Under the pieces are notes generated by a model that was not told the DNA's origin, did no database searches, and worked only from the letters and a program-made list of their open reading frames with translations. From contig NC_030383.2 of assembly GCF_001625215.2 (NCBI RefSeq), forward strand, positions 61,060,949-61,124,948: a stretch of DNA of 64,000 nt, read 5' to 3'. The position numbers and the translations under genes are program-made. Below, piece by piece: positions 2,865 to 62,086 of this stretch. Numbering within the stretch: position 1 is the first letter of the stretch; every line of letters starts with the position of its first letter. This DNA comes from Daucus carota subsp. sativus (Eukaryota > Streptophyta > Magnoliopsida > Apiales > Apiaceae).

Positions 2865-5213
2865 AAAAAAACACAGGAACTCCTGCTACTATTGGAAACT
2901 CAAATGCCTATTGACGTCTAATCAAGCCTTAAAAAGTGGAACATTAAATTATTCTTTAGTTTTGCAAGACTAGAACTAAAGAATAATTGTTTTAGAAGAC
3001 TATAAATAAAGAAAGGAATGCCATAACCTTAAATTATTTTATTTTGCTTTAGAACTACACAGTGAGATGTCAAGAGCGAAAATTATCGTACCGTATTCAC
3101 TGAACATGACGCCACCAGAGCACAACCCTTCCTCGATTTTTATAAGTTGCAAAGACATTCTAGGCCCCAACTCCTGAAGCTTAACAGCACTTTTGTTAGT
3201 AGACCGGTTAACTCTGCCTAAATCACTTGGCAGACTCACATGTGCTGCTTCATCGTCTGCTTCACTTTCAGATCCATAGCCAGCTCTTCACAGAGAGACG
3301 AAGGAACATAACAAATAAAAAAGAATGAATCAACAACGAATCTACAGTTAAAAATTATTCATTTCTTTTGCCGATCATAAACTTAATTTTCTATAATAAC
3401 AACGATATGACAGGGAGACTTTATAGCATCCTCAATTTATAGACTGAAAGATATTTGAATTTTACTAATTCAGAACTGCATGATTCATACGTATACGTAC
3501 AAGGTAAAATGTCCTCAAATACGAATCTCATGCATATGTGTGTGTGTTTAAGTAAAGAGAGAGAGGGAGAGATCATACTTTGTCACAAAATCACTCACGT
3601 CCTGAAGATCCCTGAGATCAGGAACCTGATGGTTCTGCACAAATTTTCTGATTCTACGTGAGACACCAACCGGCTGTAATCTGATTGAAAAATGCCGAAA
3701 ATCAATAAGCTTTGTATCCTTGTTGTAATTAAGTAACACTATCCTCTGACAGGAAGAAAGCTTGACCTGCAATTGAACGTGAAATATGAGAAAACCATTA
3801 CTCAGCAAAATAGCAACCTGGTTATAATGGTAATTCTTCGCTCACAGTGTTTATATCAATGGCTGGAAATATATTCTGAAACACTGTAGTAATGAGGCTC
3901 AGATGTCGCTCTTCTTTGCCAAATCCAGAAAGCACAATCTGCCACATCATCAAAAAGGTTCAAACAAACATAGTACATTATGAGCAGAATCTACAAGTTC
4001 TAGCTTTCTTAGTGGTCAGCAATATGGGATATAAAGATGAGAATCAAGTTTGGCTACGTGAACTGGATTGATAAAGATGTGGTACACAAGCAAAAAAATA
4101 TTACATTAGTGTGTCTCTTGATATATTTATACAAGCATGTGCAATTTAAATCTGCATGAATATAACTGCATGTTCCTTATAAGTTGGACAAAAGTACCAG
4201 TGGTGAATTTGCGAACAGATCTTTAGGACATCTTGGACGCAACTGGGATCGAGCAACATCAATAGCCAACGAATATTCATGTATCTTGAATGTAAGTGTT
4301 GGGCCTTGTGGCGTCTTAGCTACCCTCAAGTAGGGTGCAGTTGCAGTTTTTGATAACATAAGAAAGTGTGTAACCCCCATTGGTCCTGCAACGTTCAGGA
4401 AGTCTTTGAGATTATTACGCTTCTTCTCCTGCAATTCGTGAATTTAATTAGAATGATCTAATTATCTTGTTTTAATCAGATATACATTAGAAGTAACATA
4501 AAATAGATGTTAAATTGTTTGATAAGTTACTTAAAAGAATCCTAAAGATCATATCCAGCACTTGGCAGTTGGCAAGAATATCAAATAACTGAAGTGTGAA
4601 AGAATGTGAGAAGCAGCCAAGCCAGAAGTGATTAATTAAAAAAGTAAAAGTCTTCAATTTATTATGAGTGATGTACAGTTGCAAATCTAGAGATATGCAG
4701 ACTCTCAGCTAATCACTTGTCACTTACTCACAAATCACGATCTTCATATTAGAAGCATTTACCAAGTAGGACTATGCAAGAGATGCAAACATGTACATAT
4801 ATGGAAGCACAAGTTCACAAAGTTGCATGAATAAATTAACCTGCTTCCCATTAATTATCTAATTAGTACAAATTAAGGTTACATGAATAAATTTACCTTA
4901 AGCTTAAGTGCTGTGTACGGAAGCATAAGTTTTCTCAAGTCTGCCTGCAACTGTTTAAGTGAACCAGGCAACTTCCCTCTTGAAAAAACAAAGCTCCGCG
5001 GTATCCTGTCTCCAGTAATATGATCGACATTCTGCTGCTGTTGTTTCTTTACAACAGGCTTGACAAAAGGAACTCTCTTTTTCTGTTGCATTTCAAACAA
5101 TTACAAATAATAACATTACACTCTGTAGGTCTGATACCTAACATCGACATACAAAAACAGAAAATAGATAAGTAACTGTTATAACAACTGCTTACATTCC
5201 GAAATCTTGGCAT
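2275..5213 (-). CDS. PPAN: Peter Pan-like Brix-domain ribosome biogenesis factor (SSF1/PPAN)
   Basis: Seven coding exons join cleanly on the minus strand: 5213-5196, 5082-4897, 4428-4198, 3938-3846, 3766-3579, 3285-3092 and 2390-2275, all with GT-AG introns, giving 341 residues. The product starts MPRFRN and contains the Brix-domain signatures SFVFSRGKLPGSLKQL, LRKLMLPYTALKLK, GPMGVTHFLML, RPRCPKDLF, CQRIVLLNYNKD and RIRKFVQNHQVPDL. It ends in an acidic Glu/Asp/Ser tail, as family members do. PPAN/SSF1 proteins act in the nucleolus in 27S pre-rRNA processing and 60S assembly (family knowledge). Length is close to the Arabidopsis protein as I remember it. The start is fixed by the conserved short first exon. 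Intron 6 holds a long C21A17 tract (plus-strand reading). Confidence 0.95.
2834..2871. repeat. C21-A17 homopolymer pair in PPAN intron 6
   Basis: Twenty-one consecutive C (2834-2854) are followed directly by seventeen A (2855-2871) on the plus strand. In the PPAN pre-mRNA this reads U17 then G21. The run lies between exons 6 and 7 of PPAN. Exact lengths are uncertain, because homopolymers are prone to sequencing error. Confidence 0.9.
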
Positions 5214-6412: not shown

Positions 6413-9012
6413 ATTTCCTGGAATTTGAATATATAAAATAATAATAATTCTATAAGCTGAAAATATATTAGTTTATAAAAAAAATATTAATCATCCTTTT
6501 TTCTTATTAAGTATTTAACTATATCAAATTATTTAGTTATATATGATAATTAATATGTCATAAATACTTTCAAAAAAAATATGTCATAGATACTTTCAAA
6601 AAAAATGTCATAGATTATATATCCGCTTTTAAGTTATTACAAAAAATATTGCATCTTTCTTATTTTTAATTTTTTATTAAATTAAATTTTAGATTTTCAA
6701 ATTTCCGAAAAAGAAGACGAACTTTTAACTTTTATAAGTGAACAATTATATATCAATTTTTGATTGATTTTCAAAAATTAATTTCTAATACAAGTAATAA
6801 TCAAGACTTGGGTCCGTCCGAACAACGATAAATTAGCGATTAATCCCGATTAATCGGTCAATTCACAGAAGAGGAGCTAAACAGGATTAATCTTTTAATC
6901 CCTCGTCTTTGTTTATCAAACAATCTTCCACCAAGGAGTACGGTGACCAGGCGATATTGCTACATGATTATTGATTGATGTTTTAACATATTTTTTTTTA
7001 GCTTTTTGTTTTTATAAACATTTGTTGTGTGTATTTACGCCACAACGAAGGTACGCTTTCTTAAACTTTTGAAAATTTACTTTAATATTGATTTTGTTGG
7101 GTTATAAGTATTATGTGTAAACATGAATATTGATACTCTTGAATTCATGTATCTGCTACTTGTTATTTTTTCGATATCATTTTTTTATGAATAGTTTAAG
7201 ATTAGTATTGTAGTTGTTTTGATTATTTGTTATAGCCTTTTGGAGCCTATATTTTATTCGATTTTCTTGGTTAAAAGTTTAAGTTTCTTGTACTCTAACT
7301 CTTGCTAGTTCACACCTTAAGATCATTATTCTGATTTGATTAATATATGATTGGTTTTGTGATCACTTGTTGTTTCTTTTCATCTAATTTCTCCAATGCA
7401 ATGTGTGAATTTTGTCAATGTTGATTCATTGGGATAGTTCATGTATGTTCCAATTCTAAATTTTTTTTGTCTTTTTGATTTTTCTAGAAGATGAGATAGT
7501 TTGTGGGATTTAGTTAATCTTATTTTGTATATTACGTGCATGATATTGATATGTTGTCTTTTTTCAAATTTATTTCGAGCTACAAGTTTATTTGTGTTTC
7601 TGAGCTTGTAAGGGTTAGAGTTTGTATATCGTTATTGTTGGTGACAATCACGAGTTTATGGTGCTTCAATGTCGGTTATGATGAGATGATACTATCACTT
7701 AATGTGATTTTGAAATAAAATCTTTTTGAATAATTCTCTTGCATGATTTAAGGTTTGTTTTGTAAAAAATTGGTGCCAACTTTTATTTTATTTAACTGGC
7801 TTTAATAGTAGTTAATGATTACTTAGTTTTGGCTATATTAAATCGCTAGTTGACTTGCTCGATTGGTGTTGATTTTTGAATTTTATTTGACTTGCTTGAT
7901 TGGTGCTGATTTTTGAATTTTGTTTTGTTTCTCGAGTAATTGCTAATAAATATATGCTCTTAATGTTTATTCCTCATTGATTAGACTTTAATGCAATCCA
8001 TTAACTGAAAACTGATGTATATTTATTTACAGTCTTAATTAGTGGCCTTTATTTGTACCATTTATGGGTGGCCGGTGTTAGGAAGAGGGCTTACCAGGAT
8101 CATATTCTAACTTACCCCCTCACTCGAAAGCCCATTTATGGGTCGAGAGTGGATCACGGGCGCCCATCTTTTTTGGGACATAAACTTGCCTTCGTGTCCT
8201 TAATAAATTCTGAGAATATTGGGGGTCACAGGGAGTCGAACTCGAGTCTCCCGCGAGCCTAAGCTCTGATATGATGGTGTAGATTCTTGGCCTGATAACG
8301 GCAATTTGGTGTCATTTTGTTGGCTTGCTTATTATATTTATTTTGTTACTTAAAATTTCAGATTTTTTTTGAAGTTTAGAGTTTTATATTTTAACTTTTT
8401 TTAATACTTTTATTATTAATTATATTCCTAGTAATTAATTATCTTGTTATATATCTAGCCAAAGGGTCCCCCTTTGGTTAGATATATATTTTCTATTTTC
8501 TTTCTTATATTATCTTCTTTTTTGTCGTATTATTTTATATTTATCATTTCATTCACTTTCACCATCTTTTGATAAACTATATTGATTTTAATTATTAAAT
8601 TTATTATTATTATTTTCTTGTTATTAATGAATCGTATTTGTTTCAGGTAGCGTGGTCTTACAAGTTGGGACATTTTCTTTTCGGACATTTAGATCTTATT
8701 GTCTAAACTTCCAGAGACATTTTCATGTCTTTAGGTTAGATGATAAGCTTTTTTGAATGAAAGAAACTCTTCGGAGTATTGGCGTATTTCAATACGAGCA
8801 AGTGTATTTTCTGTAAAAAAAAAAAAAATCCCGATTAATCGACTAACTTCGAAAATAATGATTTCTGGTAGTCAGAAAAACAAGGGAGCCCGGAACTCCA
8901 CTCTAGTAATTATTTTGAGTAATAAAATTATAAGAAGTGACTGAGGGCGGGTATGCTCTTGTTAAACAGAACTTGTGTCATGCTCTATGTCTGAGTCTTA
9001 TATTACACATCA
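6413..9012. other. Intergenic region upstream of the PPR gene
   Basis: AT-rich, with no supported gene. It contains GATTAATC-rich patches (6825-6905 and 8829-8842, same orientation, sharing ATCCCGATTAATCG), a 37-bp tandem duplication at 7850-7923, a 27-bp tandem duplication near 6552-6612 and a TRIM-like fossil at 8045-8278. The GATTAATC patches resemble the arrays inside the hAT elements described below, but no ends or target duplication were found. Confidence 0.4.
8045..8278 (-). mobile_element. TRIM-like LTR element fossil (or tRNA-derived SINE)
   Basis: On the minus strand the segment starts with ATATCAGAGC, close to the primer-binding TGGTATCAGAGC seen after many plant LTRs. It later holds TTAGAATATGATCCTGGTAAG, shared with the fossil near 31700-31875. 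It is short and has no coding capacity. A GAGTTCGACTCC motif resembling a Pol III B box is also present, so a SINE origin is the main alternative. It is a broken fragment. Confidence 0.4.
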
Positions 9013-16800: not shown

Positions 16801-19073
16801 AAGTGTCTTTAAACTTTTAACTTATTACCCAATTCCCTATTAAAAACTAAAAAACCTCCAAATGTAACAATTATACAACTTCCTTTTAACTAAGTAAATA
16901 GATAGTCATGGTACATAAACTGGCGAAGGAACTTTTGGAGAACTAATCAGGCACCCCTTTTCCCTCCTTAACTCGCTTATTTTAATTGTCTGTATTAAAT
17001 ATACTTAGTCCTACAGTGAAATAATCATTGTGTATTTTAGTATATCAGTCATGTACATTAGCTTTATGAGAGTGGTACGTTAACATATAAGTACAGATAT
17101 ACAATCAACAGACTTATCCTTTCAACTGGGTCTGACGTCTCTTATTTTTTAAACATTTTAATAATAGCATGGATTCACTGATGAGCAAAAATAATGTGAT
17201 CAGTGCTACGGAAGGATATTATGGTGATCTAATAGACCATGATTTATAAGAATTAATTCAAGCAATATGAAAAAATGGCAAGCTGCAGCTAAGAATGGAA
17301 TTACTAAAAGATAAAATAAAAGCAGAATAAAGGCAGGGCACACCAAAGTTTAAGAAGACGCCAAACCTTTGATGAAAGATAAAGGCGAGCCAGGCGAAGT
17401 AACGGCAAGTTTGGGATTAATATTGTTGTCCAGGTTATCAGTCCCTTCATTAACTGAATTGGTTTTCAGGCTGAAAACGTGTACAGTACCCTTGTCACTT
17501 GACACTGCCAACCATTGTGCCGTTGAGGAGAATGCCAAACTATATATCTCTGCTCTATCTACTCCCCTTCTTACCTATTGTTAATAAACCACTCAATAAG
17601 TGTGCATACAAATTTTATGTACAACATCAAGTAAAACTACATGTGATCAGTAAGCTTTCTTTAGATAAATAAAAAATGCATTTCAACTATTAAAGGAAAG
17701 TGAACTTATGAAAGTCCAATAATACGCGTAAACTGACTAAAATTACTCTCCTCCAACATATATAGTAATAACATCCCTATGCCTCAGAAAGTGAAAAAAG
17801 ACAGCTAGATTATTATGCAAGCATGTGGATGTTAGCAGCTCACTACATCCTGTTTTAGAAAATATATAGAAGCTACAAGAATTATGATTAAGAATAACCC
17901 ATATAATTTTCTACGGGGTAACTCTGTAGATCAGAAAAGCCCCAATTTTATACAGCCATTGAAAAAATTGTAATAAAAAATATTCTCCCATGGCTTATTG
18001 CTTTCTATCAAAACTTGCATTCTTAAATTTTTCATTCAATGCTTTTATATAAGTAGATAAACTATGTACACTTGAATCAGTCATCTCATTTGTTGGCAAA
18101 AAAATATATCTACAAGGAGCTTTAATCCTTGTGAACTTTTTACAGGATCAGTATCCTAAAGTCTCTGCAACTAGCAAAATAGCAGTTCGTGTTTATACAA
18201 TTCAATCCATACTACTAAACATATAAGTTCCAGGTCCTACATAAACTAGCCTAATAACCACAATGCCAAGAAAATTACCTCTTGCAACAAAGTCCCGTCA
18301 TAAGTGTTGAAAATTCTAACCAACGTCCCCTTCGTACTCGCAGTAGCAAGCAACGTCCCATCCTGTGAAAGCTTCAAACAGGCAATCCTCGAATCATGCG
18401 CCATCACAAACTTAGTCCTCTTCGTCAAATAATGCTCAACTCTCACCTCCCCTTTCCTCAACCCGAAACAAACCATCACAAACGAACCACTCCCCTGCGA
18501 GACCTCACACAACCCCTTCGGATTCTCAAACGTCTCAATCTGATGCAACAGCTTCAAATCCGCGAAATTATACACCAACACCTTCTTCTCAAGCACCACC
18601 ACTATACTATCTCTCCGAAGCCTCACTCCGCGCACTTCAGACCTAAATGTTAATTCTCCGATACACCGGCTCTGGTGATCGTCCCAAATCATGACCTTGT
18701 TGATTGGATACTGAGGATCAGCTCCCCCGCCAACGAGCGCCAGTATGTTACACCTAAACAGCATCTCCACGATGCCGATACCGCCTCCGGTATCAAAATC
18801 TCTTCGAAAAAGCTCTCGAAATGGATCGCAGTTGTAGATACGAAAGCCACGGTCCGTGCCGCTGGAGAAACAGCCGTAATCTTGATTGAACGTGACGTGG
18901 AGGAGATTCGGGGGAGAGAGATTGTCGGAATTGGTGGAATTAGGGTTTGGAATGTCGAGGACGTCGCTTGGGGGAGTCTGTGGAGTGGAATTAGGGTTAG
19001 GGTTTGAAATTGGGGGAGATTCGATGCCGTCGGGTTGGGGGGTGGGCCAGGGGGATGGGGAGAGAGTAGTCAT
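11706..19073 (-). CDS. ATG18A: ATG18a-like PROPPIN, autophagy PI3P-binding WD40 protein
   Basis: Four exons on the minus strand: 19073-18279, 17574-17367, 12700-12574 and 11796-11706, GT-AG introns, total 406 residues. After a Pro/Ser/Asn-rich head, the seven-bladed propeller shows [78 protein letters not shown] and [16 protein letters not shown]. The phosphoinositide-binding (F/L)RRG loop appears as VRRG at 266-269, right at the exon 1/2 junction. The C-terminal [14 protein letters not shown] is typical of plant ATG18a. The protein binds PI3P on autophagic membranes with ATG2 (family knowledge). Intron 2 is 4,666 bp and holds two hAT-type elements and a Stowaway; intron 3 (777 bp) holds another hAT-like MITE. 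Confidence 0.95.
11902..12350. mobile_element. hAT-like MITE in ATG18a intron 3
   Basis: The ends CAGGGGTCGTTTGGTT and, on the other strand, GACAGGTCGTTTGGTT are near-identical over the last 12 bases. They are flanked by AGAGCTCT (11894-11901) and AGAGCACT (12351-12358), an 8-bp duplication with one mismatch, as expected for hAT. The interior is rich in 'TATGGGTTTG' and its complement. No coding capacity; 449 bp. Confidence 0.75.
12475..12496. repeat. G-rich run in ATG18a intron 3
   Basis: The run reads GG-A-G6-A-G12 on the plus strand. It lies on the non-transcribed side for ATG18a, so the intron RNA carries the C-rich complement. Confidence 0.85.
13580..14221. mobile_element. hAT non-autonomous element, CACGACACG type
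   Basis: The left end TAGACCCGGCAAA and the right end TTTGCCAGGTCTA are inverted repeats. The flanks GTCGTCAG (13572-13579) and GTCGTCAG (14222-14229) are a perfect 8-bp duplication, diagnostic of hAT. Inside each end lie degenerate arrays of CACGACACGAA, in opposite orientation on the two sides, with an (AT)n tract of about 64 bp in the middle. Apparent open frames here are by-products of the repeats. 642 bp, in ATG18a intron 2. Confidence 0.93.
13754..13818. repeat. (AT)n microsatellite
   Basis: About 32 uninterrupted AT units inside the CACGACACG-type hAT element, in ATG18a intron 2. Confidence 0.95.
14782..15059. mobile_element. Stowaway MITE
   Basis: The ends are CTCCCTCCACCCCCTTTTAC and, on the other strand, CTCCCTCTGTCCCCTTCTAC. 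TA target duplications sit at 14780-14781 and 15060-15061. 278 bp, no coding capacity, in ATG18a intron 2. Tc1/mariner family of non-autonomous elements. Confidence 0.92.
15286..16069. mobile_element. hAT non-autonomous element, ACCCGACCCG type
   Basis: The left end TAGGGATGACA and the right end (other strand) TAGGGATGGCA are inverted repeats. The flanks are a perfect 8-bp duplication CTTAAAAA (15278-15285 and 16070-16077). Arrays of ACCCGACCCG and GGATCTGGATCT units run inward from both ends in opposite orientation around an AT-rich core. 784 bp, in ATG18a intron 2. The Gly-Ser and Asp-Pro rich open frames here are repeat artefacts. Confidence 0.94.
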
Positions 19074-19250
19074 GGAGAGAGATTGGGAGAAATTAGGGAG
19101 AGATTGATCGAGAGAGATAGAATGAAGAAGAGGAAGAAGATGAGTGTCTTGTTGGGGTGTTTTTGTGACAGTTTTGCCCTTGGGGACTGAGTATGGTAGG
19201 TGATGTTATTGTCCTTATCTAGAAGGTTACTTCATTCAAAACTAACCACA

Positions 19251-19658
19251 TAGGGCTGTAATTCGAGCCGAGCCGGGCGAGTTTCGAGCCGAGCCTAATT
19301 CGAGCCAACTTTAATCGAGCTGAGCCGAGCCGGCTCGATTAACTAATCGAGCCTAAATCTTTGCCCGAACTCGACTCGGTTAATTTCACGAGTCGAGTCG
19401 AGCCGGCTCGTTTAGCTAAACGAGCCGGTTTTAACGAGCCGAGCGAGCCAGCTCGTATAATTTTACACTTAATCGAGCCCAAACCTCTACCCGAACTCGG
19501 CTCGTTTAATTTCACGAGTCGAGCCGGCTCGTTTAATTAAACGAGCCGAAACTTTTACCCGAACTCGACTCGTTTAACGAGTCGAGCCGAGCCGAGCCCA
19601 CTTAAACGAGTTCGAGCCGGGCGAGCTCGCGAGCCGCCCGACTCGAATTACAGCCCTA
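19251..19658. mobile_element. hAT non-autonomous element, CGAGCCGAGC type
   Basis: The ends TAGGGCTGTAATTCGAG match on both strands. The perfect 8-bp duplication is TAACCACA (19243-19250 and 19659-19666). The interior is almost wholly made of CGAGCCGAGC and its complement, with GGCTCG/CGAGCC palindromes. 408 bp. It lies 178 bp upstream of the ATG18a start codon, so it is within or next to that core promoter. Confidence 0.94.
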
Positions 19659-48952: not shown

Positions 48953-51452
48953 ATGTCAAATATAACAGGTGAAGAAGGCAGCTTCTCTTCTGGCAACACT
49001 GGTGAAGAAGTTCAGCAGCTTCATCACGGAAAACAGCAGCAGCAGCAGTTCCATGGCAGCCTTCCTTCTGATTCCTCACCTTCTCTTCCAGCTGCTAAGA
49101 AGAAAAGAAATCTTCCAGGAACTCCAGGTACATACATTATTCTCGAGTTTAATTATACTGTTCAATCGCTTGTCAAGGACCAGACCCCGACCCTGTACAT
49201 ATTATATGCATGGTACTACATCAGTTTTTTTTAAAATTTATTTGATTGGTTTTAAACTCCATATTAAATTTTTTGATGCAATATATAATATCATTGATAA
49301 TATTGTAAAGGGTCAATTATTGGTTGGAAAGAACACAATAATTGTTCAAGACTGTGCACAAATTTTACTTTTCTGATCATCTGTTTTGGCTGTATTTTGT
49401 TGATCTCTAGTTCTTTTTATTCCATTAGTTAATCCTCTGAGGTTAGCGTTAATGATGTTATAATTATGTGTTTATATGTGCTTAAATTAGATCCGACGGC
49501 TGAAGTTGTTGCTCTGTCTCCTACTACACTAATGGCAACCAACAGATTTGTCTGTGAAATTTGTAACAAGGGTTTCCAGAGAGATCAGAACTTGCAGTTG
49601 CACCGCAGAGGTCACAATCTTCCCTGGAAGCTGAGGCAGAGAACGAGCACCGAGGTGAGGAAACGAGTTTATATATGCCCGGAGCCAAGCTGTGTCCACC
49701 ATAATCCTGCAAGAGCATTAGGTGACCTTACTGGAATCAAGAAACATTATAGTCGAAAACACGGAGAAAAGAAATGGAAATGTGACAAATGTTCGAAGAA
49801 ATATGCTGTGCAATCAGACTGGAAGGCTCATCAAAAGACTTGTGGCACCAGGGAGTATAAATGTGACTGTGGCACTATTTTCTCCAGGTATGAATATGAT
49901 ACAATTTTTTCTATTATTGCATGGCGTTTATGAATCGGGTATGATTATAGATTAGATTGTGGATCGGGTTGTTGAGAAACAGTCCATCTAAAATCTTAAG
50001 ATATCAAAGGAAGGTCTCTAATGGATCTCTCTCCACCAGACCAGAGCTCTGATACCATGTTGAGAATCCGTTCATCTAAAATTTTAAGGTGTTAGAAGAA
50101 AGGATTAAATGGATCTTATGATATATTATTAGAACCTGTAAGGGTAATTATAAGATTTTCAAATATAGAATGATATGGTGGTGGAACATGACCATGACCG
50201 ACAAATTGATATACTTTTTGATTAATTTCCTCTATCACGTCAACACGGGTTGCATATACTAACAAAGACAAAAGAAAAAGAGAGATGTGATTTTATAGTC
50301 TAATGGCACCAGCAACAATCACTTACTCTTAGGTCAAAGAGTGCATGTCTCACTGTCTGTATCTGTTAATCATAGTTAATTGGTAGCTTAACATGGTATC
50401 GGATTTAAAAAGTGTTGAAAGTGTTGGGTGGTTTGTGCAGGAGAGATAGCTTTATAACTCACAGAGCATTCTGTGATGCACTGGCTGAAGAGAACAGCAA
50501 AGTGAACCAAGGACTAATGAATAGTATGGGGTCAAATTTACAAGCTCAGATGCCTCATGAGCTCCTCTCATCAATGCCTAATAGCACTTCCATGGCAATG
50601 ACTGAATTCAACAACAATTATGACAACAAAAGCCCAATGAAGTCACTCCCCTCGGACCTCGTGGCGTTTAAGCCCATGAACATGGCTGGTGGTATGTTCT
50701 CCACCAGCTCAGGAACACTTTTTGGTGGTCAGAGAAACAATGCACCTTCCTCTTCATCTGGGCTTCAGCTCAGCTCAAATAGTCCTGCTAGCTTCAATGG
50801 ACAGGGCCAGGTTTCCGGGACAGCCCACATGTCTGCAACAGCATTGTTGCAGAAGGCGGCCCAAATGGGGGCAACTGCAAGTAATAGCATAAACTCTCCT
50901 ATGATGCAGAAGAGTTTTGTTAGTAGCATGGCAGGTCCAATGATGCAAAGCCCTGGTAATAATTCTTATGAGAATTTTCAGACACAGCCTGATCAGACAA
51001 CTATGGTTGGAATCACTCCTGGAGGAGCATATGGAAATGCACAAATGTTGCAAAAGGGCCCACAAGAAGTGGCCCAGATGTTCGGGTCCGGGCCCGCTAA
51101 TTCGCCGACAATGAGTGACATGGGAATGTTTAGTGACATGCTTATGGGCAATGACCAACAAAATCATGCAGGATTCATTAAAAACACGGGCAATCAAGAC
51201 AATGACGGGACAATGGGCTGGAACACGACAGGCCCGTCAAGATTCGGAGGACTAGGCGGGCCTGCCGGAGTAGCACCACCGGGAGGTGGCAGCGGCGGCA
51301 ATGACATGTTGACGGTAGATTTCTTGGGGATTGGAGGAGGGTCAAGGCCACCAAATGTGCATGAGCAACAACAAAGAATGCAAATGGCAAATCCTTTTCA
51401 ACAACTATCACATGCAGAATCAGACATGGAAAAGCCCATTTGGGATGTTTAA
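48953..51452 (+). CDS. INDETERMINATE-domain C2H2 zinc finger transcription factor (IDD4/IDD5-like)
   Basis: Three exons, 48953-49127, 49491-49887 and 50441-51452, GT-AG introns, 527 residues. A KKKRNLPG nuclear signal precedes the ID domain. The fingers are ZF1 FVCEICNKGFQRDQNLQLH (about 78-97), then YICPEPSCVHHNPARALGDL with its paired histidines, WKCDKCSKKYAVQSDW, and YKCDCGTIFSRRDSFITHR, which spans the exon 2/3 junction. The C-terminal half is Met/Asn/Ser/Gly-rich with the family motifs MSATALLQKAAQMGA and LTVDFLGIGG. IDD proteins bind DNA and interact with GRAS proteins such as SHR, SCR and DELLAs (family knowledge). Subgroup placement (RAVEN/IMPERIAL EAGLE side) rests on the C-terminal motifs. 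Intron 2 holds a TRIM-like fossil. The start is the first ATG in frame with the exon. Confidence 0.94.
49975..50165 (-). mobile_element. TRIM-like LTR element fossil in IDD intron 2
   Basis: On the minus strand an LTR-like end (TTTTAGATGAACGGATTCTC then AACA) is followed at once by the primer-binding motif TGGTATCAGAGC, complementary to initiator tRNA-Met. About 65 bp on, a second copy of the same end follows (TTTTAGATGGACTGTTTCTC then AACA). Short direct repeats around a primer-binding site with almost no interior fit a TRIM. It is a partial, broken copy. Confidence 0.6.
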
Positions 51453-52225
51453 GGATAACCCATCCATTTCATTTTGGGCTTACTTCAGCCCAAACTTGAT
51501 TTTTACCACAGGGCTTAAATTGAGTGGGCCGAATGAGCTTTTGAAATAGAGCCATGCTCTTGAGCTAGTTGTTATTAGTTCTAATCTTGAATAACAGAAG
51601 CCTGTTTAGGCTAATTAGGGCAATAACAAAGGTGACGCCTTGTTTATTAAAACTGCATTGCCCGATAGCATTACCTAATTTAAAACTTATGTATTGCTCT
51701 CTCTTTCTTTTTTCTAAGCTATTGCTCTTTTTTGTCCCTATGCATTATATTACCCTTGCAATGAAATCCCGTCAGGTACCGATTAAATTAAACACCGTCC
51801 TTTTTTTAATTGTTCCGCAAAATCAAAAAATAATAAGTTTATCGATCACATTCCGATTAAGTTTCAAAATTATTTTATTCATTTATTAGTTACATTGTGA
51901 TTTAATTAAAGATATTTTATTTATCAAAAAATATTTGACAAATCTTGAATCCACAGGTCAATCAATTAGTTCGGCCTCTTAATTTTTGCAATCATATTTA
52001 CTGATTAATTTAATTGTTTTTTCAAAAACCTGAATTATATTTGAAATTCTGAATTTAAACAAATAACTTGTTTGAAAATATATATTTGAATTTTATTTCA
52101 AATCTAAAGCATTCAAATATATTTTTTTAGGAGGATTCCAAATCCAAATAAAATGCACGTTTCATCGAACTTGCACCAAGGTGATAATTAAATTCCCTCC
52201 AAACCCATCTTCATATCTCTAATCA
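51453..52225. other. IDD 3' flank
   Basis: The IDD 3' UTR and AT-rich spacer; nothing else recognised. Confidence 0.5.
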
Positions 52226-52344
52226 TGGGCCTGCTGGCCCAGTACCTAAAACAAAGCCCATGGGCATTTCAGTAATTCAGTCAACAAATCTTATACAAAC
52301 CCTAAAACGATATCCAGGGCAATCCCTCTGTGCGTATATATAAA
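52226..52344 (+). promoter_or_regulatory. Site II / telo-box / TATA promoter of the snoRNA gene
   Basis: TGGGCC at 52226-52231, GGCCCA at 52236-52241, AGCCCA at 52255-52260, a perfect telo-box AAACCCTAA at 52297-52305 and TATATATAAA at 52335-52344 lie in order over 120 bp. This set is known from plant snoRNA and ribosomal-protein gene promoters. Nothing coding follows it, only the C/D-box sequence below. Confidence 0.75.
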
Positions 52345-52427
52345 CACACACATCGCCCTTTAAGCAATCAACAATTTTCTCTGTGTTTTCAAATATTGTT
52401 AAGTTTTCGATTTTAATTAATTTCTAC

Positions 52428-52526
52428 GAGGCTGTGATGATGAAAAACCTACCTATTTTCTGAGGGGATTTCATTCTCCCCATTCTCTGATTGAGAAATC
52501 TTTACCAATGGATCCTTCTGAGCCTC
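52428..52526 (+). ncRNA. C/D box snoRNA candidate
   Basis: A 99-nt unit: terminal stem GAGGC (52428-52432), C box GTGATGA (52434-52440), D' box CTGA (52460-52463), C'-like TGATTGA (52488-52494), D box CTGA (52518-52521) and the matching stem GCCTC (52522-52526). The order, spacing and 5-bp stem are those of a standard box C/D RNA, which would guide 2'-O-methylation through the sequence just upstream of D or D'. Candidate guides are CCTACCTATTTT (before D') and TACCAATGGATCCTT (before D); I could not assign an rRNA target from memory. The start lies about 85 bp after the TATA box, so it would be cut from a short Pol II precursor. Confidence 0.68.
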
Positions 52527-54479
52527 TTCTCTTTTTCGCACTTGTAATTTTTTTTTTTGTTTTGTGATTTTTATGCCGATTCGCATGAGAATTGGCTGAT
52601 TACGAGGAACGGATATTTTGCGAAACTAACTTTTAGATTAGATTGTGAAAAGTTCGTTTCTCGTGTCGGACAGTTCTACGGTGAATTATTATTCTTGATA
52701 GTATGAAAGAAGCTGTTGGGGTGAGGATTGATTATACGGAATATACATGTCGATTTAAAAAACAGACTACAATTATCTGACCAATGGCTTCTTTTCTTTT
52801 GTTCTTTTTCAATGTGTTTGCATGAATCTGGTTTTGCTGTATTGTTTTTTAGCATTGGTGTTTTGTTAAAATATTTTCCTGGGATTTTAATTTATGTTTT
52901 TTTTTTTTTTTTTGTGATTTAAGCGTTGAGAAATGATTACTTATGATTATTAGAAGTTTACAAAATTCTGATGATGTATTTAATTTTCGTTATACTATTG
53001 GATGTTTTTAGGGTCAGAGATGTATTCAAGCACTTCAAGTTGATCGAGTTGGTTTTGTGCCACATTCAGTACAGTTTACATCACAACGAAATAGTTTGGT
53101 TTTTGGAATTAGATATATGAGAAACTCTTTGGAAGAAATTGAATAAAACAGGTGTAAGTATTGAAAACAAATTGCAGAGCAAACTTATTTTAATATTTAA
53201 AATGAACTAGATGTATAAAATTTAAGGGGTAGTTGATTCAGGGTTAATGAGCTGATTAATTGAAATTGAAATCGTAAATATATATGTCGTAAATATATAT
53301 GTTTTGTTTGGATTAGTATATTTTTTTTTACTAATGCGGCTTATATTACCTTACAATTTGAGTATCTGTTATAAGATATTCTCGAGATGAGTTAGAGTCG
53401 AACTCAGGAACCGGTCATAGAAGATTATAGAATGAGAATTTTATTCCATTTTATGGTTAATCATTCCTTTTCTGGGATTCATTTTCATACTCTTTATTTT
53501 TATAATTCTTGTTCCCATTTCCATCGGTTACCCATCATTTTAATACTTATTTTTTATTGTGTTCATGTATATAATTCAGAAAAACTGTTAAAAGAAAATG
53601 CATTGTGTGCGTGGCGAACATAGTTACTTTTTTTTAAAGTGTGTAAAAGGACAAAATGTGATATTAAAAAATTAATTTAAATCAATCTTGTTTTATTAAT
53701 CTGAATTATATGCCTATAAAATTGATATAATGTTTGTAATATATGATAAAAATGAAATTGGAGTTTAATTAATAAATTATGAAGCTTTTTTGTCAGTTTT
53801 TAAAAGTACACAATGTGAAAAAAAATGAAATTGGAGAGTATTTGTTAGTTCTTTAGAGCTAGACAAAGTGAAAAAAATAAAATTGGAGTTTATATAGTAA
53901 AATTTAGAGTTTATTTATCATTTTTATATGACCATGTTGTTTTAATTGTCACCTGAAGCAAACAAAAACAATATTTATGTCAGAAAATGGATTATCAGAG
54001 TAGAAGTGTCAAGCATCAACTGTGCAATCAAAGTTTAACTTTGTTTAGATATGCTTGATGCCCTTCTAAAATCATACATACCAGCACAAGTTTTGGCTTG
54101 ATTTTTAATTAAAAGAATCACTTCATAATTACAAAATACAGCAAAAGGTATAAATTTCAAATTGTGAAAAATAGGAACAATGTAAATCCAATTGCAATAG
54201 TCAGCCTTGGGGATTACAAATTGCTTCAGATGATATGATAGTTCCAACTCCAATTGCAAAAATACAAAAAATTACTTGCTTCTGGTGCTTGCTTGAGAAT
54301 CCTCGACAGTAAAGGACTAAAGGGGTCAAGTAATTGCTGAAATTCTATATAATTTGGTCCCATATAGCACAATACAATTTTAAGTGCTCCTATTTGTCAA
54401 AAAAAAAAAAAAAAGCTGATTGCTATGTATAAACCTATTGGCTATTCGTACTAAAACCATGTTGTTCCTCCTGATTATA
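52527..54479. other. Intergenic region between snoRNA and MTP genes
   Basis: AT-rich with several T-runs. An AAAGAAGC/GCTTCTTT inverted repeat at about 52707-52797 is noted, but no second snoRNA could be supported. No open frame shows a known pattern. Confidence 0.45.
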
Positions 54480-60400: not shown

Positions 60401-60809
60401 CTGATGTCAACATTACATTATCAACTAAATTAATCATATTAAAACCGAGAAAACTAATTTATCGAGTTCCAAAAGAAGCAATTACCACATCAGACAGAGA
60501 ATGAGCTGCATCAGCGATAATCGCGGTACTCCCAGAGACATAACCGGTCAATGCTTTACCGGCAGCTAATCCGATATCAGCGGCGAGTCCGAGCCGGAAA
60601 ATCTTCTCGCCTTCCTCCGATCGGCGCCGGTGATCGTGGTGAGAGTGACCGCCGTGCCATCTCTTGGGAAGCGTGAAATTAGGGTTCGGAGAGGGAGAGA
60701 GTGAGTGATTGTGTAATGGAGGTTGAATTATAGAGATGAGATGATGTGTGTAATTGCTTGGGGGTGAATTGTAGGGCTTGAGATGTGTGAGTAGTCTTGT
60801 GAGTTTCAT
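54480..60809 (-). CDS. Cation diffusion facilitator, metal tolerance protein C4-like (MTPC4/MTP7)
   Basis: Twelve exons on the minus strand: 60809-60486, 59445-59376, 58877-58780, 58636-58485, 58296-58181, 57559-57463, 57074-56990, 56733-56671, 56558-56453, 55713-55568, 54766-54675 and 54600-54480. They give 489 residues. The head holds HGGHSHHDHRRR, then the membrane region begins with RLGLAADIGLAAGKALTGY. The metal site appears as DAAHSLSDV, and the second as NAWHHRADAVSS. Also seen are DKEHPYGHGKFESLGALGIS, FLDPLAGLVVSGM and the cytosolic ferredoxin-like domain (GRRAGSSLHLDVNIEVDPFS, HPEVAEVFIHI). CDF proteins export divalent metals such as Zn2+ or Mn2+ against protons (family knowledge); the N-terminus may be an organelle-targeting segment. 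All introns are GT-AG except 56734-56989, which appears to be GC-AG. Confidence 0.92.
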
Positions 60810-62086
60810 TTCGGAGAGAGAGCGAGAGATTGAGAGAGAGAGATTGCGAGAGAGATAGTGTGGAATGTTAGAGATGAAAGTGGCATGAAAAGGCAGGGGG
60901 AATCTGGTACTGAGCTGCCATGTTAAGCAACTATTCTTTGTTTATTTTTTACAATTTTTGGATTTGAACAATTATAAATAGCATGGTCCATCACACACGT
61001 AAGCGGTTTTTTTGGGGATAGACAATAATTTCAATTTTTTACTAAAATATAATGAATTATCATATTTTTCACAGAAAGAATCACTTATTCTGGAAATTTT
61101 ATCATTCGACAACTTTTTTTAAAAAAAATTATTCATTTTAAGATTTTTTATCAACTAATAATTTTTTATGAATGTTATTTATAATTGATTATTGTGACCA
61201 TCGCCGTCCAGATAGTGTTGAGCTAGATAGAAACTTATAATTCTAGAAGAGTGCGAGAATGAGTATATCAAAGGATTTGGAAAAAATGATCAGATGAAAA
61301 TCAAGTTCTCATTTCATATCACAAAATCCAAACACCAACACATGAGTTTGAGGTTTCGATTTCTGTCAACATGACTCGTTAACCACGAACTTAACGGCTC
61401 TAAATAAAATGTCTTGTAATGGTCATTTCTGTCACTAACCTTGGCATTTCTTCCGGAAAAGCAATATCCATAACTAGATAAAGCTGATCAAGGTAAGTTT
61501 GTTCCTTCTGCATTGAGTTCTTGTGAATACAATTTAGCCAGAACTCAGCCGCATCTTCTACGAACATTATGATCCTTCAACAGGATAAACAATTTAGCCA
61601 GAACTCTGCCGCATTCCTGCAATCGTTATGATCCTTTAACAGGATGAACTTGCAGCAAAGCCTCATCTCAATTTTCACCTCAGCATCACATTTTAGCTAT
61701 GACCGTAAAGCACAACTAAGACATGACTGGCATAGCTAGTACATGACTGTATAAACATAGCAATGCAATGATTATGTAACTGTTTATCTCCCAAGTTTTA
61801 TCAGGGTTATGAGCTTCAACATGGAGGAGGTTTTAGCTTTGTAATACAAAATTTCAGTGTCATTTTGCAATAAATGTAAGAAGTAAATTATACACAGCCC
61901 AAGCGTAAATTTTGAAGATAAGTGGAATCTTGTTTGCGCACAATATCAGGACATGAAAATGTAATTACTTAAATGTGGAAAATGTAAAACAAAACAAGAC
62001 AAGAATAACTGATTATCTTTTAAAATCATTCAACAAAAATACCTCGCGCCTTCACCAAAGACTAGGAAGTCGAATAAATTGTTACT
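60810..62086. other. Intergenic region between the MTP and RLP genes
   Basis: Next to the MTP start, a GA-rich stretch (60813-60860; CT-rich in the transcript) is probably MTP leader. A 60-bp tandem duplication occupies 61530-61648. The rest is the RLP 3' flank. No gene is seen. Confidence 0.5.
61530..61648. repeat. 60-bp tandem duplication
   Basis: CAATTTAGCCAGAACTC begins at 61530 and again at 61590; each copy also contains GCCGCAT and ATGATCCTT(C/T)AACAGGAT. It lies about 440 bp downstream of the RLP stop codon. Confidence 0.9.

Follow-up and report, generated by a model that had tools for sequence, protein, structure and literature searches.

A probable two-snoRNA unit in carrot, with a snoR41-family RNA followed by a snoZ155 candidate

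Setting and promoter of the locus

The locus belongs to a stretch of 64,000 nucleotides of Daucus carota subsp. sativus (NCBI assembly GCF_001625215.2, contig NC_030383.2, positions 61,060,949-61,124,948, forward strand), which is called the window in the following and provides the position numbers used here. It carries a group of promoter motifs, a box C/D snoRNA of the snoR41 family, a predicted foldback and a snoZ155 candidate, in this order and all on the plus strand; the two snoRNAs are the only matches to Rfam at gathering thresholds in the whole 64-kb window. As far as the listed open frames show, the unit is intergenic. Its upstream neighbour is a plus-strand frame ending at 51452 with a match to BIRD-IDD zinc-finger proteins, and the first listed frame of at least 110 amino acids downstream (60459-60941) lies on the minus strand and matches cation-efflux proteins, as judged from Pfam searches with 10 of the 23 listed frames of the window. 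The unit itself lies outside the coding frames found, in agreement with the original prediction that no protein gene follows. ARAGORN, run in its bacterial setting, detected no tRNA in the window, and a tRNA-snoRNA gene was dropped from consideration for this reason. A plasmid search with 52200-52900 as query gave zero matches.

Exact motif searches recovered all promoter elements named in the original prediction at their places on the plus strand, i.e. three site II motifs (TGGGCC at 52226-52231, GGCCCA at 52236-52241 and AGCCCA at 52255-52260), a perfect telo-box (AAACCCTA, 52297-52304) and a TATA box (TATATATAAA, 52335-52344). The telo-box and site II motifs lie within 1 kb and upstream of the TATA box, which corresponds to the TeloSII promoter of plant snoRNA genes as defined in PMC4660826, the source of the site II (TGGGCY) and telo-box definitions used here, and bears out the promoter type that had been assigned. 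According to PMC3022908, 37 of the 40 Arabidopsis snoRNA loci that are not intronic have telo-boxes upstream. When 300 sequences of 64 kb were simulated with a first-order Markov model of the window (dinucleotide transitions), none had AAACCCTA, in either orientation, with three site II motifs no more than 100 bp away, which indicates that the combination exceeds chance. The window has 18 telo-box positions when three permutations and both strands are counted; within 150 bp, 15 of these have one site II motif at most, and only the three overlapping positions at 52297-52299 have three. A minus-strand open frame that matches PROPPIN/WD40-like proteins (18249-19205) contains a cluster of five reverse telo-box positions (18940-18998) and a single site II motif at 19043. 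Transcription from the promoter described here would start at around 52365-52370. Its position upstream of the snoRNA was predicted correctly, whereas the distance of 85 bp given for it has to be changed to 83 bases, counted from the end of the TATA box to the start of the C/D unit.

The snoR41Y gene and its predicted rRNA targets

Box C/D snoRNAs are stable RNAs bound to fibrillarin, NOP56/58 and 15.5K. The unit at 52428-52526 (about 99 nt, plus strand) has the complete layout of this class that had been recognized originally, consisting of box C (GTGATGA, 52434-52440), box D' (CTGA, 52460-52463), a C'-like element (TGATTGA, 52488-52494) and box D (CTGA, 52518-52521), closed by a terminal stem of GAGGC (52428-52432) and GCCTC (52522-52526). 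It is recognized by the snoR41 model of Rfam (RF00205) at 52425-52528, scoring 60.8 bits (gathering score 40) with an E value of 6.1e-09 for the window. The alignment extends over positions 1-97 of the 97 positions of the model and includes box C, the D' guide and its box, C', the D guide and box D, so that the boxes and the terminal stem can be regarded as features of the family; this bears on the question, raised with the original prediction, of whether they are conserved in related species. The layout alone is weak evidence: a scan for a strict box C, a box D and a stem of at least five pairs found one unit in the window, where 40 simulated sequences contained 0.525 on average, and the unit folds only mildly better than shuffled versions of itself (z -1.67, with 12 of 200 shuffles as good). 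What raises the unit above chance is the match to RF00205 together with the two rRNA duplexes described below, rather than its layout or fold.

The carrot RNA shares with the family the arrangement of boxes, both guides, the terminal stem, the size and the bases at the D+5 positions. It differs from the consensus by 12 inserted nucleotides (eight between D' and C' and four between C' and the D guide) and by the deletion of four nucleotides before the D' guide and one at the 3' end; these changes fall mostly into spacers, and a functional difference is not expected from them. A scan of 51900-53700 with E values of up to 5 produced six Rfam matches, which included, apart from snoR41 and snoZ155, snoR11 and snoR126, both overlapping snoR41, as well as mir-268 (52690-52815) and STnc100; these four score far below gathering and were rejected.

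Aligning the guides with rRNA, a check suggested along with the original prediction, yielded a duplex for each of them. The D guide (52505-52517) forms 12 Watson-Crick base pairs and one G-U pair with 18S rRNA and places an A at D+5, the base expected for A545 of Arabidopsis 18S rRNA; the D' guide (52448-52458) forms 11 bp with LSU rRNA and places a U at D+5, the base expected for U1067 of Arabidopsis 25S rRNA. Both guides are complementary to the regions expected for snoR41, with the expected bases in register. A match of the observed length was reached by none of 400 shuffles of the D guide and, in the two rRNA pieces, by five of 400 shuffles of the D' guide; because of these five, the D' match is the weaker one when taken without its D+5 register and the Rfam consensus. 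Neither rRNA piece is from carrot, and the sites are equated with the Arabidopsis positions by the D+5 base rather than by mapping the Arabidopsis numbers onto the pieces. The rRNA queries that retrieved the pieces included the target stretches, which means that this search was not a blind one, and the rRNA nature of both pieces was then confirmed by Rfam (1657.4 bits to RF01960 for the 1764-base 18S record and 419.9 bits to RF02543 for the 592-nt LSU fragment). The 18S record is filed as Acinetobacter baumannii plasmid pVB7036_2 (1-1764) and is apparently a contaminant; the LSU fragment represents positions 3004-3595 of a contig from a Mangrovicoccus ximenensis assembly, apparently a contaminant or chimera. 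Short rRNA queries found no eukaryotic rRNA in viral contigs, and a plasmid search with the LSU fragment as query gave zero matches.

An Arabidopsis RiboMeth-seq study lists SnoR41Y as guide of both 18S A545 and 25S U1067 (PMC8053127); the assignment was made from the sequence according to the D+5 rule, and the portion of the text considered here reports no SnoR41Y mutant. Tomato and tobacco are listed with both methylations, Am544 and Um1068, in PMC11542601, whose text counts Um1067 as 'Arabidopsis-specific', yet whose table row has entries for these two species. Taken together, 52428-52526 very probably represents a plant snoR41Y methylation-guide gene, i.e. a further plant copy of a guide already known, and the original assignment as a C/D snoRNA gene is upheld by the family match.

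The snoZ155 candidate and the foldback

The second Rfam match, at 52714-52786 on the plus strand, starts 187 bases past snoR41Y and belongs to snoZ155 (RF00326). Its score of 47.7 bits lies 4.7 bits above the gathering score of 43 and thus passes the cut-off of the family. The 14-nt guide (52763-52776) and the box D following it (52777-52780), which was located by motif search and C/D scan, are identical to the consensus, and the positions of the terminal stem are aligned. In contrast, box C (52721-52727) reads GTGAGGA and deviates by one substitution from the canonical GTGATGA, and the candidate measures 73 nt compared to 81 in the model. Its fold is no better than that of shuffled sequences (z 0.89, with 165 of 200 as good). 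The candidate may be either functional or a recently decaying copy. The guide has a best Watson-Crick match of 6 bp in the rRNA pieces, which comprise 18S rRNA and only the 592-nt part of the LSU rRNA, and queries for the 5' region of 25S rRNA had no match. The guide may be complementary to the 25S stretch around U144, which we do not claim as its target. U144 is assigned to SnoR36 in PMC8053127, and snoZ155 appears in the literature consulted, as far as its text was available, as a table entry only. A relaxed scan of 52301-54300 found no C/D units other than snoR41 and snoZ155. Neither the snoZ155 match nor the foldback between the two RNAs had been part of the original prediction.

This foldback (52578-52687, plus strand) comprises 110 nt with 44 predicted pairs and a loop of 8 nt, and since 88 of its 110 nucleotides are paired, it shows the near-continuous arm pairing of a plant miRNA precursor. 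Its minimum free energy (MFE) amounts to -45.1 kcal/mol on the sense strand vs. -16.3 on the antisense strand. With ends chosen by hand, it reaches a z value of -8.1 and ranks fourth among 1599 plus-strand stretches of 110 nt, namely 1598 taken at steps of 40 and the hand-delimited foldback itself; the fixed-step stretch at 52561 has a z value of -7.0, and a 150-nt stretch that was tested first one of -3.9. If 90-nt stretches of the two strands are simply ordered by energy, the site comes only 76th out of 8522. Very stable foldbacks, among them those of lowest energy in the window, are clustered on both strands at 19300-19650. The contrast between the strands was compared for 17 stretches (the 25 of lowest z minus eight overlapping neighbours), of which one at 7401 is equally strong in relative terms (-27.8 vs. 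-6.9) and three more (15321, 22361 and 45561) show a milder contrast. The stem spans 52 columns with 11 G-U pairs and no A-C mismatch, a count which leans toward a maintained RNA stem rather than a young inverted duplication, with the reservation that the sense strand was the one for which the fold was optimised; the p value of 0.001 obtained for this asymmetry is biased for the same reason. Folding of 52365-52900 as a single piece preserves the inner stem of the foldback but rearranges its outer pairs as well as the snoR41 terminal stem. An H/ACA RNA was judged against by eye from the lack of a large internal pocket in the stem, and a mobile element is disfavoured as far as the window is concerned, which contains no second copy, only chance-level matches of 17-23 nt.

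Proposed expression of the unit and alternative readings

The best explanation of the computed elements (family match, boxes and stem, both guide duplexes and the D+5 bases in them, promoter motifs and predicted foldback) is a plant gene that RNA polymerase II would transcribe from a telo-box/site II/TATA promoter, with snoR41Y and then probably a snoZ155-family RNA on the transcript. We are fairly confident that the two form such a unit, with snoR41Y first and snoZ155 second, their co-transcription being suggested by their relative position. The snoRNA gene described originally would be retained as a gene, but probably not as a lone one, in view of the snoZ155 match on the same strand. RNase III would most likely enter at the foldback, after which exonucleases would shorten both snoRNAs as far as their terminal stems. 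Fibrillarin and the other C/D proteins would join snoR41Y, which would guide 2'-O-methylation at the carrot counterparts of A545 in 18S rRNA (D guide) and of U1067 in 25S rRNA (D' guide). We infer these events for carrot throughout, from transcription and co-transcription to cleavage, protein binding and methylation. Precedents are available for such a scheme: polycistronic precursors are described as standard in plants, with RNase III usually excising the individual snoRNAs (PMC5122169), an RNase III initiates the processing of polycistronic pre-snoRNAs (PMC4660826, section 7), RNase III of fission yeast cuts a hairpin in a precursor that contains at least two non-coding RNAs (PMC12508059), and an Arabidopsis transcript with two snoRNAs has a TeloSII-type promoter (PMC9175010).

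The arrangement may also be read as a single-RNA snoR41Y gene, the snoZ155 match being a non-functional relic and the foldback unrelated to processing. Such a reading would account for the altered box C, the narrow margin above gathering and the unremarkable fold of the candidate, and single intergenic telo-box snoRNA genes are known from Arabidopsis, where the PMC3022908 table row 'Intergenic orphan snoRNAs 23 21 17 1' may be cited if 'orphan' is taken as single, the row being considered here apart from its column heads. We nevertheless consider it rather unlikely, since a relic should have drifted in the guide and box D as well, which are both identical to the Rfam consensus, and since the candidate lies on the same strand at such a short distance.

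An extended version of the two-snoRNA unit would be a three-part transcript of snoR41Y, foldback and snoZ155, in which the foldback either yields a product of its own (a miRNA) or serves as a dedicated RNase III site setting the order of processing, and in which snoZ155 works with a non-canonical box C; taken as a whole, this appears unlikely. For the predicted role of the foldback as RNase III entry site, taken by itself, the chances seem evenly balanced. The site is plausible in this role, and a miRNA precursor is the less likely assignment. A snoRNA-miRNA gene resembling sno-miR775 and sno-miR779, two Arabidopsis genes with the same promoter type (PMC4660826), would leave the foldback without a function as processing site, and the long, near-continuous stem with its low energy and z value (for hand-chosen ends) would suit it. 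The sno-miR779 gene, with snoR128, snoR129 and miR779, shares with the carrot locus the telo-box/site II/TATA promoter and the combination of two C/D snoRNAs and a foldback on one presumed transcript, but its miRNA follows the two snoRNAs, whereas the carrot foldback is placed between them. No Rfam match overlaps the foldback, either at gathering thresholds in the window or with E values of up to 5 in 51900-53700, and three 14-nt stretches of its arms, searched as RNA and DNA letters, had no match in the main texts of the literature covered, which reported no small RNA from it; together with the maintained character of the stem suggested by its G-U pairs, this makes a miRNA precursor quite improbable. 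Finally, the suggestion of an orphan or lineage-specific C/D snoRNA, made originally on the sole basis that the guides could not be matched to rRNA, is ruled out by the RF00205 match and the pairing of both guides with rRNA at the expected D+5 bases.

The promoter type, the clustering and the function proposed here are standard for plants, and the sole features that merit further attention are the foldback and the substitution in box C of snoZ155. As to the presumed targets, the 18S A545 site also occurs in animals and fungi (human A590 and yeast A541, given as Am590 and Am541 in PMC11542601), whereas the table row for 25S U1067 in the same source has entries for Arabidopsis, tomato and tobacco only. 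The foldback, being far more stable on the sense strand, would offer a concrete place to study how plants cut precursors containing two snoRNAs.
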